Shown one piece after another: positions 17,130 to 33,478 of a stretch of DNA of 33,664 nucleotides. The DNA comes from an uncultured Cytophagaceae bacterium (GTDB lineage: Bacteria; Bacteroidota; Bacteroidia; Cytophagales; Spirosomataceae), in NCBI GenBank assembly GCA_903907915.1, contig CAIVPV010000260.1, positions 1-33,664 on the forward strand, read 5' to 3'. How positions within the stretch are numbered: the stretch's first letter is position 1; the number at the start of each line of letters is the position of its first letter. The translations under genes were made by a program, and so were the position numbers. The notes under the pieces were generated by a model. The model ran no database searches. It was not told where the DNA came from and saw nothing but the letters and a program-made list of their open reading frames with translations.

Positions 17130-17331
17130 ATTCTGGCAAATCCTGGGAGGAATATTCGGCGGTATAGCTGGATATTTCTACTGGAGAGAAATTGGTTGTG
17201 TTACGGGCACTTGTCCCATTACAAGCAAACCGCTAAATAGTATTATTTATTTTGCGGTTTTGGCTTATTTTGTGACGGGAACGATTGAAGGTTTTAGAGC
17301 ACAAAGAATAAAGAAGAGTAAAGAATGGTGA
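17107..17331 (+). CDS. Small membrane protein (DUF6132-like)
   Basis: GGIFGGIAGYFYWREIGCVTGTCPITSKPLNSIIYFAVLAYFV; overlaps upstream gene. Confidence 0.75.
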   Translation: MKKFIQSRFWQILGGIFGGIAGYFYWREIGCVTGTCPITSKPLNSIIYFAVLAYFVTGTIEGFRAQRIKKSKEW

Positions 17332-17445
17332 ATGGTAAATGATGAATGGTGAATTTTCCCTCCGGACTCATTCCCTTCGGACTAATTACCTCCGGACTGA
17401 CTACTGACTACTGATTACTGATTACTGGATACTGATTACTGAACA
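17321..17445 (+). repeat. Site B: heptamer/TCCGGA/heptamer mosaic repeat
   Basis: aatggtg-aatggta-aatgatg-aatggtg; three TCCGGACT- or TTCGGACT-bearing 15-mers; tactgac-tactgat-tactgat-tactgga-tactgat-tactgaa. Confidence 0.85.
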
Positions 17446-17462
17446 ATTAAATACCTTTTAAA

Positions 17463-23859: not shown

Positions 23860-23966
23860 AAAATGGTGAATGTTGAATGGTAAATGGTGAATGATAAATG
23901 TTTCCTTCGGACTCATTCCCTCCGGACTACTGTTTACTGGATACTGAATACTGACAACTGATTATT
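23860..23966 (+). repeat. Site C: second copy of the site B mosaic repeat
   Basis: aatggtg-aatgttg-aatggta-aatggtg-aatgata-aatgttt; ttccttcggactcattccctccggactact; ttactgg-atactga-atactga-caactga. Confidence 0.85.
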
Positions 23967-24266
23967 ATGAGCAAATTCGACGAACTATTGAAATCACCAG
24001 AACCCGTATTAGTTGATTTTTCAGCTGAGTGGTGTGGTCCATGCAAGCAATTGAAGCCTATTTTAGAGCAATTAAAGTCTAAAATTGGAGATTCTGCCAA
24101 AATCATTAAAATCGATGTCGACAAGAATCGTACCTTAGCAGATAAATTCCAAATCCGTTCCGTACCCACCTTGATCCTTTTTAAGGATGGAAAGTCGGTT
24201 TGGCGTCAGTCAGGAGTTATTCCGGCGAGTACTTTGGAAGGAATCATTAAACAGCATTCAAAATGA
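23967..24266 (+). CDS. Thioredoxin
   Basis: VLVDFSAEWCGPCKQLKPILEQL, SVPTLILFKDG. Confidence 0.93.
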   Translation: MSKFDELLKSPEPVLVDFSAEWCGPCKQLKPILEQLKSKIGDSAKIIKIDVDKNRTLADKFQIRSVPTLILFKDGKSVWRQSGVIPASTLEGIIKQHSK

Positions 24267-24976
24267 GAAACATTCTATATTCATTTGTAATCATTGGTCT
24301 ATTATTTTCTTGTGGGCCAAAAGAAGGACTACAAGACCTAGTCGCCACAGAGTTCCAAACAGCCATGGCTGGGGAGTCAGGAGTGCAGGTTTTGGACGTG
24401 AGAACCAGTGATGAATTTCAAAATGGCCACATCGAAGGAGCCATCAATGCAGATGTAAGCTCTCCCACTTTCGCACAAATCGCTGATGGATTAGCGAAGG
24501 ATAAAACCGTTTTCGTGTACTGCTTATCTGGAGCTAGATCCTCCTCAGCTGCAGGAATGCTAAAAGAAATGGGCTTTAAATCAATCGTCAATTTAACTGG
24601 CGGCATGTTAGCTTGGCAATCGGCTAATTTGCCTGTCGCTACAGGTGAAACAAAAGCGAGTGCATCAGTGGGATTAACGGAAGCTAGTTTTGCCGATAAA
24701 ATCAAAGGCAAACCGATGGTCATCATCGACTATAATGCCACTTGGTGCGGCCCATGTAAGCAATTAAGCCCTATTTTGAAGGAATGGGTTAAAGCGCAAA
24801 ACGGGAAAGTCGAACTGATCGAAATCGATGTAGACGAAAACCAAGAGCTGGCTAAATCCAAGAAAATCGAAGCAATCCCCTACCTAGAAATGTACAAGAA
24901 TGGCGTAAAGACGTGGTCGAGTGTGGGGTTGATTGGGAAAGAGGAACTAGACAAGTCAGTGGGCAGTGGACAGTAG
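24263..24976 (+). CDS. Rhodanese-thioredoxin fusion lipoprotein
   Basis: Lipobox LLFSCG; rhodanese VLDVRTSDEFQNGHIEGA...VYCLSGARSSSA; thioredoxin YNATWCGPCKQLSPILKEW. Confidence 0.9.
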   Translation: MRNILYSFVIIGLLFSCGPKEGLQDLVATEFQTAMAGESGVQVLDVRTSDEFQNGHIEGAINADVSSPTFAQIADGLAKDKTVFVYCLSGARSSSAAGMLKEMGFKSIVNLTGGMLAWQSANLPVATGETKASASVGLTEASFADKIKGKPMVIIDYNATWCGPCKQLSPILKEWVKAQNGKVELIEIDVDENQELAKSKKIEAIPYLEMYKNGVKTWSSVGLIGKEELDKSVGSGQ

Positions 24977-25092
24977 TCAGTGGTCAGTTTACAAAGTTCA
25001 AAGAGCAAAGTTCAAAGAATTTAAATTAAGTATTTCAAATAGTATCGCCTTTGGCGATTCCAACTCTGAACTTTGAACTTTGCTCTTTGAAA
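24955..25092. repeat. Site D: inverted heptamer-repeat element between convergent genes
   Basis: cagtgnn heptamers, then TTCAAAGAGCAAAGTTCAAAG (24997-25017) exactly inverted at 25071-25091, flanking hairpin ATCGCC-TTT-GGCGAT. Confidence 0.9.
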
Positions 25093-25093
25093 T

Positions 25094-25600
25094 TTATTTC
25101 TTAGCCGCCTCAAACCCAATCGACACCGAATTCACGCAATAACGCAAACCTGTAGAGGTAGGTCCATCATCAAATACGTGACCTAAGTGGCCTCCGCATT
25201 TAGCACAGGTGATTTCGACACGACGCATGCCTAGGGTGTTATCTACGGTTTCTTTGATAACTCCAGCTTTTACTTCTTTATCAAAACTAGGCCAACCGCA
25301 ATGCGAATCGAACTTCGAATTTGAGCTAAAAAGTGGTGCGCCGCAACCTCTGCAGGTATACATCCCCTTCTCATTGTGCATTAAAAATTTTCCAGTATAG
25401 GGCTGTTCTGTGCCTTTTTGGCGTAAAATATAATATTCGTCGTCCGTTAATTTAGCCTTCCATTCGGCCTCTGTTTTAGGCAAATTTTCCATCGTTTTCG
25501 TTGCTGTGGTTGCTATCGTTTGTTTAGGCGTTTGTTTGGGTTGTTGTCCACAAGCCTGCAGGCTAATGAATACGAGTACTAATCCTAGAATCTTTTTCAT
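25094..25600 (-). CDS. msrB: Peptide-methionine (R)-S-oxide reductase, lipoprotein
   Basis: Lipobox LQACG; YTCRGCGAPLFSS, FDSHCGWPSF, CAKCGGHLGHVFDDGP, RYCVNSVSI. Confidence 0.95.
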   Translation of the reverse strand: MKKILGLVLVFISLQACGQQPKQTPKQTIATTATKTMENLPKTEAEWKAKLTDDEYYILRQKGTEQPYTGKFLMHNEKGMYTCRGCGAPLFSSNSKFDSHCGWPSFDKEVKAGVIKETVDNTLGMRRVEITCAKCGGHLGHVFDDGPTSTGLRYCVNSVSIGFEAAKK

Positions 25601-25649: not shown

Positions 25650-25835
25650 GCCGCAGCGGCAGTCGTCCTGCGGACTTAGTCGACTTCGTCTTAGTCATCG
25701 CTGTGCGATTTAGTCCGGAGTCAAAGTTCAAAGAGCAAAGTTCAAAGTAGTTTTTTGACTAAGTCACGAAGTGACGACTAGGCCGCTTGCGGCGACCTCT
25801 TGACTACCTCTGAACTTTGGTCTTTGAAATTTTAA
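25650..25835. repeat. Site E: dense hairpin cluster with inverted heptamer arms
   Basis: GCCGC-A-GCGGC, GTCC-TGC-GGAC, GAC-TTC-GTC, TCGC-TGT-GCGA, GTCAC-GAA-GTGAC, GCCGC-TT-GCGGC; arms caaagttcaaagagcaaagttcaaag and ctctgaactttggtctttgaaatt. Confidence 0.88.
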
Positions 25836-25836
25836 A

Positions 25837-30051: not shown

Positions 30052-30750
30052 ATGAGCACTTTTTTTAGTCAGAATTTACGTTTTTTACGCAGCAAGATGT
30101 CAGAGAAAACGTCGCAGGAAAAACTAGCGGAATTACTGAATATTAAGAAGCCGACTTTGGGCTCGTATGAGTCCGGAAGAGCGGAGCCTAAATATATGGA
30201 TTTGATCTCTCTAGCGGAGTTTTTTAAGGTAGAAGTGGATGAATTATTGAAGGAAGATTTGTCTACAAGAATCCCCGGCCTGTCGAACAAACCTAAGCTA
30301 CGAATTTTAGCTACGACGGTCGATGCGAACAATGAAGAGAATATCGAGATGGTTCCGGTCAAAGCTTTGGCAGGATACACCGCCTCCTACGACGACCTCG
30401 ACTTCGTCCGCGATCTCCCTACGTTCCAAGTGCCTTTCCTGCCTAAAGACAAGAAATACCGCGTTTTCCCCATCAAAGGCGAATCGATGTTGCCCCTACA
30501 ACCGGGCTCTTTAGTCTTCGCTGAATACGTCGAAGACTGGACCCAAATCAAGGACGGCACCATCTGCATCGTCGTAACCCGCGAGGACGGCGTCGTGTTA
30601 AAACAGGTCATCAACCACCTCGCAGAACGCAAAGTCTTGATCCTGAACTCGACGAACAAGACCTACGATCCTTACCCGATTTTGGGCTCTGAAATCCAGG
30701 AAATCTGGAAGTTCGCGGGGTATTTTTATAATGAATTTCCAGAAAGTTAA
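30052..30750 (+). CDS. XRE HTH plus S24 peptidase (LexA/CI-like) repressor
   Basis: HTH SQEKLAELLNIKKPTLGSYESGRAEPKYMDL; candidate cleavage site ALAG; FPIKGESMLPLQPGSLVFAE; VVLKQV. Confidence 0.9.
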   Translation: MSTFFSQNLRFLRSKMSEKTSQEKLAELLNIKKPTLGSYESGRAEPKYMDLISLAEFFKVEVDELLKEDLSTRIPGLSNKPKLRILATTVDANNEENIEMVPVKALAGYTASYDDLDFVRDLPTFQVPFLPKDKKYRVFPIKGESMLPLQPGSLVFAEYVEDWTQIKDGTICIVVTREDGVVLKQVINHLAERKVLILNSTNKTYDPYPILGSEIQEIWKFAGYFYNEFPES

Positions 30751-30751
30751 A

Positions 30752-30860
30752 TAGCAAAGTTCAAAGATTGAATCGCCTGCGGCGATGAGTTCGTGAAGAA
30801 TTTCCTCCGGACTCATTTCCTCCGGACTGCCCACTCTCTACTGCCCACTGTCCACTAAAT
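30752..30860 (+). repeat. Site F: mosaic repeat, recombination of modules seen at other sites
   Basis: caaagttcaaag; hairpin ATCGCC-TGC-GGCGAT; tttcctccggactcatttcctccggactg; cccactc-tctactg-cccactg-tccacta. Confidence 0.85.
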
Positions 30861-30862
30861 AC

Positions 30863-32959
30863 ATGATCTCACGCATATCAAACTCCCTTTCCATTTCCGA
30901 AAACCAAGTTCGGAAAACCATCGCCCTATTGGACGAGGGCGCCACGATTCCTTTTATTTCCCGCTACCGCAAGGAAGCGACCGGAAGTTTAGATGAGGTG
31001 CAAGTGGCTGCAATTCGCGATTTACGGGACCAATACGTAGAATTAGAGAAGCGCCGCGAAGCAATTTTGAAGTCGCTAAAGGAACTGGAGAAATTGACAC
31101 CAGAATTAGAGAAGGCGGTTCGAGGGGCAGAGACTTTGGCCAAATTAGAAGACATCTACCTTCCCTACAAACCTAAGCGCAAAACGCGCGCGATGGCAGC
31201 CCGCGAAAAAGGCTTACAAGAACTCGCAAACCAAATCCGATTACAAGGCCTAAAAGACCCAGAGGTCTTAGCGGCTGAATACTTAGACAATGTAGAGGAA
31301 GCACTTGCAGGGGCTCGGGATATTTTAGCCGAGGAGATGATGGAAACGGCAGAAGCGAGAGAAGAAGCCAGAAATCTATTTACCCGCAAAACGACTGTTA
31401 AATCTAGCGTAGCGAAAGGCAAAAAAGAGGAGGGCATTAAATACAAAGATTATTTCGACTGGTCCGAATCCTTGGCACAAGCGCCGTCTCACCGTATTTT
31501 GGCCTTATTCAGAGGCGAAAACGAAGGAATTCTAAACCTAAACTTAACAGGCCCAGACGAGGACGTTTTAACTAAATTAGAGCGCCGCTTCCTGACAGGG
31601 AACAATGCCTGTGCAAAACAAGTGGGACTGGCCATCCAAGACGGCTATAAACGCTTGCTGATGCCGGCCATGGAAACCGAGATGCGTGCTGAAGCGAAGA
31701 AACGCGCAGACGAAGAAGCGATTCGTGTCTTTGCAGAAAATATCAGACAACTTTTATTAGCCGCACCCTTAGGCCAAAAACGCGTCTTAGCCCTAGATCC
31801 AGGTTTCAGAACGGGTTGCAAAGTCGTTTGCCTGGATGAACAAGGAACACTTTTAGCTAACACGGCAGTTTATCCACATACCGGACCCGGACAGGCTGCA
31901 GAAGCCGCTCAAACCATCCAAGCCTGGGTGAAACAATACAAAGTACAAGCGATAGCCATCGGAAACGGAACGGCAGGTCGTGAGACCGAATCCTTTGTGC
32001 GTGGACTAAAACTAGAGGGAATTACCATAATCATGGTGAACGAAAGCGGAGCATCCATCTATTCAGCCTCTGAAGCGGCACGGGACGAGTTTCCAGACAA
32101 GGATTTGACCGTTCGTGGCGCAGTTTCCATTGGGCGTCGTTTGATGGATCCTTTGGCAGAACTGGTTAAAATTGATCCTAAATCCATCGGTGTGGGGCAA
32201 TACCAGCATGATGTAGACCAAAAGAAACTCCAAGCCTCCCTTGATGATACGGTTATCTCCTGCGTAAACTCGGTAGGTGTGGAATTAAACACGGCCTCGA
32301 AACAGATTCTATCCTACGTTTCTGGCCTAGGGCCGCAATTAGCCCAAAACATCATCGACTACCGCACGAAGAACGGCCCCTTCATCAAGCGATCAGACCT
32401 AAAAAAGGTCACGCGTTTAGGCGAAAAAGCCTTCGAACAGGCAGCCGCTTTCTTACGGATACGCAACGCAAAAAATCCGTTAGATGCTAGCGCAGTACAC
32501 CCGGAACGTTACGAAATTGTCGAAAAGATGGCAAAAGATTTGAACTGTAAGGTTTCGGATCTGTTAGCGAACGAGTCCTTACGCAAACAAATCCGCCTGA
32601 GTCAATATGTAAGTGCTGAAGTGGGAATGCCTACTTTGACGGATATTATGGAAGAGTTAGCTAAACCAGGACGTGACCCTCGAGAGCAATTTGAGGCTTT
32701 TGAATTCACCGAGGGAGTAAACTCGATCAAAGATCTTCGTATAGGAATGATGCTTCCGGGAATTGTGACGAATATTACGAATTTTGGCGCCTTTGTAGAT
32801 ATCGGAGTTCACCAAGATGGCTTAGTTCACGTCAGCCAGCTAGCAGATAAGTTTGTGAAAGATCCCAATGAAGTAGTCAAAGTGGCACAAAAAGTGCAAG
32901 TCCGAGTGACGGAGGTGGATGAGGTAAGGAAGCGGATTGCGTTGAGTATGAAGAAGTAA
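30863..32959 (+). CDS. tex: Tex family RNA-binding transcription accessory protein
   Basis: Tex N-terminal domain, ALDPGFRTGCKVVCLD (YqgF-like), HhH domain, C-terminal S1 domain LPGIVTNITNFGAFVDIGVHQDGLVHVSQLAD. Confidence 0.95.
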   Translation: MISRISNSLSISENQVRKTIALLDEGATIPFISRYRKEATGSLDEVQVAAIRDLRDQYVELEKRREAILKSLKELEKLTPELEKAVRGAETLAKLEDIYLPYKPKRKTRAMAAREKGLQELANQIRLQGLKDPEVLAAEYLDNVEEALAGARDILAEEMMETAEAREEARNLFTRKTTVKSSVAKGKKEEGIKYKDYFDWSESLAQAPSHRILALFRGENEGILNLNLTGPDEDVLTKLERRFLTGNNACAKQVGLAIQDGYKRLLMPAMETEMRAEAKKRADEEAIRVFAENIRQLLLAAPLGQKRVLALDPGFRTGCKVVCLDEQGTLLANTAVYPHTGPGQAAEAAQTIQAWVKQYKVQAIAIGNGTAGRETESFVRGLKLEGITIIMVNESGASIYSASEAARDEFPDKDLTVRGAVSIGRRLMDPLAELVKIDPKSIGVGQYQHDVDQKKLQASLDDTVISCVNSVGVELNTASKQILSYVSGLGPQLAQNIIDYRTKNGPFIKRSDLKKVTRLGEKAFEQAAAFLRIRNAKNPLDASAVHPERYEIVEKMAKDLNCKVSDLLANESLRKQIRLSQYVSAEVGMPTLTDIMEELAKPGRDPREQFEAFEFTEGVNSIKDLRIGMMLPGIVTNITNFGAFVDIGVHQDGLVHVSQLADKFVKDPNEVVKVAQKVQVRVTEVDEVRKRIALSMKK

Positions 32960-33154
32960 TGGTGAATGGCGAATCTAAAGTTTTAAAGCATAAAGCACAA
33001 AGAATAAAGCACAAAGATGGTATCGCCTTCGGCGATGAGTATGTGAACTATTTTAAAAAAATTCGAAGGAAATAGTTCACGAATCCATCCCCGCAGGGGA
33101 TTCCTACTTTATTCTTTGTGCTTTATGCTCTCTGCTTTAAAACTACATTCACCA
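32960..33154. repeat. Site G: 195-bp hierarchical inverted-repeat element between convergent genes
   Basis: TGGTGAATG/CATTCACCA ends; 22-bp arms at 32988-33009 and 33107-33128; internal hairpins ATCGCC-TTC-GGCGAT, GTGAACTATTT...AAATAGTTCAC, ATCCCC-GCA-GGGGAT. Confidence 0.92.
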
Positions 33155-33160
33155 TTTAGA

Positions 33161-33478
33161 TTACTCTTTCTTCTTACAGCAATTCGGCAACTTCGCATAG
33201 TCTTTAGCGATCGCCTTCACCTCATCTGCATCGTATCCCGTTTCTGAGATTACTTTTCTGATACCTGATGCATCGATTTTTGCCGCATCGAACTCCACGG
33301 TGATGACCTTGTCGTCTAGATTTAAATCGGATTTAGCCACGCCTTTCGTCAAAGCTAAATTCTTTTCAATGCGCTCTTTGCACATTTCGCAAATGGCTGA
33401 AGTTTTAATCTTAACCGTTTCTTTAGGGCCCGCAAGCGTTAAAAACGGCAGAATCAATAAAAATAAGAACTTTTTCAT
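33161..33478 (-). CDS. Secreted heavy-metal-associated (HMA) domain protein
   Basis: Signal peptide; VKIKTSAICEMCKERIEKNLALTKGVAKSDLNLDDKVITVEFD. Confidence 0.88.
   Translation of the reverse strand: MKKFLFLLILPFLTLAGPKETVKIKTSAICEMCKERIEKNLALTKGVAKSDLNLDDKVITVEFDAAKIDASGIRKVISETGYDADEVKAIAKDYAKLPNCCKKKE

Follow-up and report, generated by a model that had tools for sequence, protein, structure and literature searches.

The palindrome between convergent tex and HMA genes as a member of a dispersed and modular family of 7-bp-unit repeats in Aquirufa

The gap between two convergent genes, tex and a small gene for an HMA-domain protein, is filled by a composite palindrome in the window (the whole 33,664-nt stretch of DNA analyzed here), which raises the question of what kind of element this is and what it does at the ends of two genes. 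The original prediction described a nested structure that fills the intergenic space and carries no ORF. This description held at the level of sequence: all named segments were found in place, the distance from the tex stop codon to the HMA ORF is 201 bp (32960-33160), both gene names have Pfam backing, and an ORF is indeed lacking (Table 1). The exact inner arms are likewise present, but their length, given as 22 bp, is corrected to 23 bp (32987-33009 and 33107-33129). However, a reading of the locus as a single special structured RNA is not supported. Instead, the palindrome is well supported as a member of an intergenic repeat family that is dispersed and modular in the Aquirufa antheringensis clade, with arms of 7-bp units that enclose exchangeable hairpin modules. 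Also well supported is the placement of this family in a wider class of intergenic repeats with 7-bp units, which occur in many Bacteroidota.

Table 1. Coordinates of the palindrome, its parts, the flanking genes and related heptad mosaics in the window
Feature	Position	Strand	Remarks
tex ORF	30863-32959	+	Name backed by Pfam Tex domains
Small HMA-domain ORF	33161-33478	-	Name backed by Pfam
Whole composite palindrome	32960-33154	.	Between convergent tex (+) and HMA (-) genes
Outer ATGGTGA-type heptad-arm remnant, TGGTGAATG	32960-32968	+	Directly 3' of the tex stop codon; seen in the sequence
Inverted mate of the outer remnant, CATTCACCA	33146-33154	-	Seen in the sequence
Left arm, purine-rich AAAG heptads (AAAGCAT AAAGCAC AAAGAAT AAAGCAC AAAG)	32984-33016	+	Lag-7 segment 32984-33009
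Right arm, inverted heptads (CTTTATT CTTTGTG CTTTATG CTCTCTG CTTTA)	33107-33139	-	Pyrimidine-rich on the + strand
Hairpin module 1, ATCGCC-TTC-GGCGAT	33022-33036	.	Stem covaries among copies
Middle hairpin, GTGAACTATTT (33043-33053) with AAATAGTTCAC (33070-33080)	33043-33080	.	Exact pairing lost in orthologs G243 and G013
Hairpin module 3, ATCCCC-GCA-GGGGAT	33087-33101	.	Swapped in some other copies for a perfect A-tract/GC-stem/T-tract hairpin
Chimeric relative, gap upstream of tex	30741-30862	.	Target-like on the left (ATCGCC hairpin, AAAG heptads and GAGTNNGTGAA), with inverted CAGT heptads and TCCGGACT modules on the right
Relative with CAGT heptads, AAAGTTC heptads, ATCGCC hairpin and inverted AAAGTTC heptads	24955-25095	.	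Between convergent thioredoxin/rhodanese and msrB-like genes
Relative with other hairpins, flanked by inverted arms of AAAGTTC heptads	25720-25836	.
Relative with AAAG and ATGG heptads, TCCGGACT modules and inverted CAGT heptads	17303-17446	.
Relative with ATGG heptads, TCCGGACT modules and inverted CAGT heptads	23860-23966	.	Fills the gap between two tandem ORFs

Predicted folding of the window copy

Chance origin of the palindrome is excluded. Folding of both RNA strands, a check suggested with the original prediction, yielded very stable structures: the MFE of the 201-nt gap is -82.9 kcal/mol on the plus strand and -85.7 kcal/mol on the minus strand, compared with shuffle means of about -38, which corresponds to z scores of -10.4 and -11.6 (0 of 200 shuffles as good). 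The DNA fold has a z score of -9.8. The outer stem with three branches that had been proposed for either strand is predicted for the plus strand of 21 of the 26 family copies described below, but the window copy itself favors a different shape. Here, the previously named cloverleaf pairs alone account for -59.2 versus -70.0 for the MFE, and the ATCGCC and ATCCCC hairpins show pairing probabilities of 0.01-0.05 because the two core halves pair together into one long rod. On the basis of the base-pair probabilities, the cloverleaf was rejected as the predicted shape of the window copy. The statement that the palindrome is no simple T-tract terminator proved correct, as a search for GC-rich hairpins followed by a T-tract (intrinsic, Rho-independent terminators) between 32800 and 33300 returned 0 sites.

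A dispersed modular family and its turnover at gene ends

In the genome of the freshwater bacterium to which the window belongs (2.2 Mb in 370 contigs, an 82% complete MAG), a search with the element gave 80 matches, which a hand count by the analyst reduced to about 39 distinct places with element parts. Matches to the AAAG element were also found in eight of the 39 relatives searched, all of one genus, which is identified as Aquirufa by named tex orthologs, including the tex of A. antheringensis (98% identical to that of the window). The 26 near-full-length distinct copies that were collected share one grammar: four to five AAAGNAY units and a short spacer lead into hairpin 1, a weak central segment (GTGAA...TTCA) and hairpin 3, and the inverted units follow, so that a core with two, often three, hairpins lies between inward-facing arms. 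In most copies, the core is more stable than its shuffled counterparts (mean z -3.5; z < -2 in 20 of 26 copies). A perfect bidirectional A-tract/GC-stem/T-tract hairpin replaces hairpin 1 or 3 in 8 of 26 copies according to a strict detector, and in more of them by eye if mismatches are allowed.

Covariation, the second suggested check, was found for one part of the structure and not for the other. The short hairpin stems from copies and related gaps covary strongly (score 0.400 versus 0.068 when shuffled; 0 of 500 shuffles), where the set comprises 15-mers hand-picked as hairpins, largely from paralogs, and therefore demonstrates paired change rather than a number of independent events. The AAAG arms, on the other hand, do not covary copy by copy, as they match within copies no better than between copies (p 0.90). 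Arms are therefore interchangeable between copies of this family, and their matching within an element comes from the shared vocabulary.

Heptad mosaics also fill five further gaps in the window. They draw on the vocabularies ATGGTGA, CAGTNNN and AAAGTTC and reuse modules such as the ATCGCC hairpin and TCCGGACT pairs. The outer remnant TGGTGAATG of the palindrome uses the same vocabulary as the heptad arrays at 17323-17348 and 23862-23900. In the mosaic directly upstream of tex, two element types appear to be fused mid-way into a chimera. One CAGT heptad array (24957-24988) overlaps the 3' end of the ORF at 24263-24976 and supplies its last codons and stop. A repeat of another period, 15 bp, is located at 604-783 inside the ORF at 550-2562, where it encodes a repeated EETVV-like peptide.

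The gap 3' of tex was compared in 30 Aquirufa genomes, with gap orthology resting on the tex neighbor. A 7-mer palindrome is present in all eight genomes of the window's clade, defined by a C-terminal part of tex that is at least 95% identical, and three vocabularies are used at this one site: AAAG in the window's genome (G000), G243 and G013, ATGG in G007, and AGAG in G020, G002, G022 and G015. In six sister genomes, the same position is occupied by an ordinary canonical bidirectional terminator (e.g., AAAAAAAGCCCTCA...TGAGGGCTTTTT), and the remaining clades carry unrelated palindromes or repeats. The divergence of homologous arms without compensatory changes had been named, together with the lack of a transcript, as the outcome that would refute the original prediction. 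The 11-bp middle hairpin does decay in this manner among the three AAAG orthologs, and the AAAG arms do not match copy by copy (see above). Over elements of different vocabularies, arms do match within elements (0/5000 permutations, see below). In G243, the loop of hairpin 1 is GAA rather than TTC, which resembles an inversion of the hairpin. Further species-specific vocabularies, some of them in inverted pairs, were found in the thioredoxin/msrB gap, namely AGAAGTA (L240), AATTATA (L245) and AGGTAAT (L236).

Several other arrangements were observed. Upstream of the thioredoxin-like ORF in two Aquirufa species (L242 and L245), arrays of at least a dozen nearly exact TTCTACA units stop a few bases short of the start codon. 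A different repeat, in which a CCTTTGGCAATCCTTTAGGTTTGCCAAAG palindrome with a GACGCAGCATGCGTC hairpin recurs several times in tandem, is located 3' of tex in L225 (G019) and L072, and in nine other Aquirufa genomes (L210-L218) this gap is filled by a clade-specific palindrome of the type TACCGGAGAA...TTCTCCGGTA.

Period, position, polarity and probable role of the elements

The general rules of these arrays were derived mainly from the single-contig relative G007. In 1.2 Mb of this genome, 72 arrays with a lag of 7 were detected compared with at most five for any other lag between 4 and 13, which makes tandem 7-bp units the dominant short period, and the arms in the window consist of 7-bp units as well. 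Sixty-seven of the 72 arrays are intergenic, in a sequence that is 93% coding according to the simple script by which genes were called. Arrays were found in 18 of 90 convergent gaps (20%), 18 of 280 tandem gaps (6%) and 2 of 173 divergent gaps (1%; convergent versus divergent, p 1.2e-7). In a vocabulary-free test, neighboring arrays are purine-rich and then pyrimidine-rich in 17 cases (14 in G007, one in the window and two in another Aquirufa with a different vocabulary) and in the reverse order in none. Across elements with different 7-mer vocabularies, which are built from units such as AAAGNAY, ATGGTRA, CAGTNNN and AGAGTAT, arms match better within elements (15.4) than between them (11.1), and 0 of 5000 permutations were as good. 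The arrays are not confined to Aquirufa, as CAGT-type runs were detected in 70 and AAAG-type runs in 57 of 198 Bacteroidota genomes; since a reversed-pattern control also matches some genomes, both numbers are a measure of 7-bp periodicity and of simple repeats as a whole. Heptads are much rarer than in G007 in the 200-kb samples taken from four other Bacteroidota genomes.

Judging from its structure, the element most likely acts at the 3' ends of genes in both directions, a role that we consider somewhat better than an even bet. This role is favored because the layout corresponds to that of a bidirectional terminator stretched over 200 bp and because an ordinary terminator occupies the site in sister species. 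In this model, the transcripts of tex and HMA would each cross a purine-rich arm, the hairpins and then the complementary pyrimidine-rich arm, and each would fold into one very stable hairpin. The element may thereby end or insulate both convergent transcripts, protect their 3' ends and stand in for the bidirectional terminator of the sister clade. Spread and turnover of the family probably involve gene conversion or template copying among its members, together with slippage in 7-bp steps and hairpin inversion. Against such a role stand the lack of a T-tract terminator in the window copy, the AAAG arms that do not covary copy by copy and the middle hairpin that decays between orthologs. The avoidance of divergent gaps would also follow from a simple tolerance of insertions that lie away from promoters. 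In G007, a canonical terminator is present in 6 of 16 convergent gaps with heptads and in 27 of 49 without them, as counted by a simple detector that misses some terminators visible by eye. There is no clear difference between these fractions, and a systematic replacement of canonical terminators by heptads is therefore not supported for this genome.

The strongest rival explanation is a neutral or selfish repeat whose arms grow by slippage in 7-bp steps, whose copies are spread by recombination and whose bias toward 3' ends would arise only because insertions at such sites do no harm to promoters or coding sequences. We regard this as a possible but clearly less probable reading. It fits the depletion from divergent gaps, the very fast turnover of vocabularies and copies at orthologous sites, the joint occurrence of heptads and ordinary terminators in several gaps and the mismatched vocabulary of some arms. 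Tolerance, however, explains the gene-end bias and not the polarity: the purine-first order (17 to 0) across unrelated sequences, the element-specific matching of arms and the covarying stems need either a structural constraint or a mechanism that copies structure. In addition, the canonical terminator of the sister clade is absent from the tex 3' gap in the eight genomes that carry the palindrome. Spread as a non-autonomous mobile element, MITE- or REP/RAYT-like and moved by a transposase that acts in trans on the palindromic ends, appears unlikely. Copies are dispersed, their length and ends (TTAAAG...CTTTAA) are fairly constant, and two similar copies flank tex in the relative L058. However, a search for the RAYT-type Y1 transposase (PF01797) gave no match in G000, covered to the extent of an 82% complete MAG, or in G007, G013, G020, G243, G002, G008, G015 and G022, and a RAYT/REP identity was rejected on this basis; target-site duplications are not evident by eye, and heptad vocabularies differ wholly between species. 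Phage or plasmid origin was likewise rejected, with no match found, as was an integron attC site, with no TIGR02249 integrase match over the cut-off in 38 Aquirufa genomes.

The least probable reading, which can be given very little weight, is that the tex/HMA gap yields a discrete structured non-coding RNA in the form of a cloverleaf or sRNA. The very stable fold on both strands and the three-hairpin fold of most copies agree with it. However, no promoter-like site was found at the gap, no Rfam family matches the palindrome over its gathering score (a tRNA is the only match in the whole window), and the window copy folds as a rod, while the orthologous gap of sister species contains unrelated sequences and many copies are located at unrelated gene ends. 

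With the bidirectional 3'-end element retained as the preferred reading, a wider proposal can be put forward tentatively. Bacteroidota might share a fast-evolving class of gene ends made of inward-facing, purine-first 7-bp arrays, whose vocabulary would be replaced wholesale between species while pairing, period and polarity are kept. These would serve as interchangeable bidirectional transcript ends and be generated by a DNA process that steps in 7 bp and copies structure.

Comparison with known repeat systems

Paired DNA uptake sequences of Neisseria and Haemophilus are inverted pairs of short words at gene ends that form stem-loops acting as terminators. The Aquirufa elements resemble them as inverted pairs at gene ends and differ in that uptake pairs consist of a single fixed word, with neither 7-bp arrays nor a modular core. 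The cyanobacterial STRR share the 7-bp unit, as do the heptanucleotide repeats in the stem of the Nostoc tRNA-Leu intron, which form both complementary sides of that stem; these repeats belong to another phylum and have another sequence, and those of the intron lie inside an RNA gene. REPs are single palindromes of 20-40 bp that are tied to RAYT transposases. With the REP/BIME elements of enterobacteria and pseudomonads, the Aquirufa elements have in common that they are dispersed, mosaic, extragenic palindromes at gene 3' ends, whereas REPs are without 7-bp arms and the Aquirufa carriers without a Y1 transposase. REP elements are also frequent between convergent genes (PMC1525189).

In Xanthomonas, GGGAATC heptameric repeats often occur as two convergent arrays near each other. 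The GGGAATC/GGGGATT repeats of Xanthomonas and Nostoc are found on the coding strand where they closely follow a stop codon, and on the opposite strand where they closely precede the next ORF (PMC4692102). They share with the Aquirufa elements the 7-bp unit, the intergenic location, the inverted convergent pairs and the polarity, with the purine-rich strand just downstream of the stop. In contrast, they use one G-rich vocabulary and are discussed as G-quadruplex, whereas the Aquirufa elements, found in Bacteroidota, use several AT-rich vocabularies per genome and enclose exchangeable hairpin modules. Consequently, the latter are heptameric intergenic repeats in the broad sense (7-bp period, intergenic location and inverted pairs of fixed polarity) but not in the narrow sense of the G-rich unit GGGAATC/GGGGATT. 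Direct repeats of the heptamer TAACTGA are described in Beggiatoaceae, Cyanobacteria and five Bacteroidetes in the available passages of PMC4679880, which also remark on other heptamer repeats in Bacteroidetes. These, too, are intergenic 7-bp units, and the CAGT-type arrays of the window come close to the TAACTGA word; in those passages, however, the TAACTGA heptamers form direct repeats that precede start codons, with no mention of an inverted, purine-first pairing at 3' ends.

The literature searched, mostly non-subscription papers, yielded no account for Bacteroidota of 7-mer palindromes that enclose hairpins and draw on several vocabularies. Repeats of 7 bp are known from several bacterial phyla, and no explanation for them is settled. 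In Aquirufa, with its dozens of sequenced species, one and the same gene end bears another 7-mer palindrome, or an ordinary terminator, depending on the lineage. Two questions thereby become testable: the reason for a period of 7 together with the origin of the matched inverted arms, and a function of the elements as transcript ends. This would also account for much of the longer intergenic sequence in these compact genomes.
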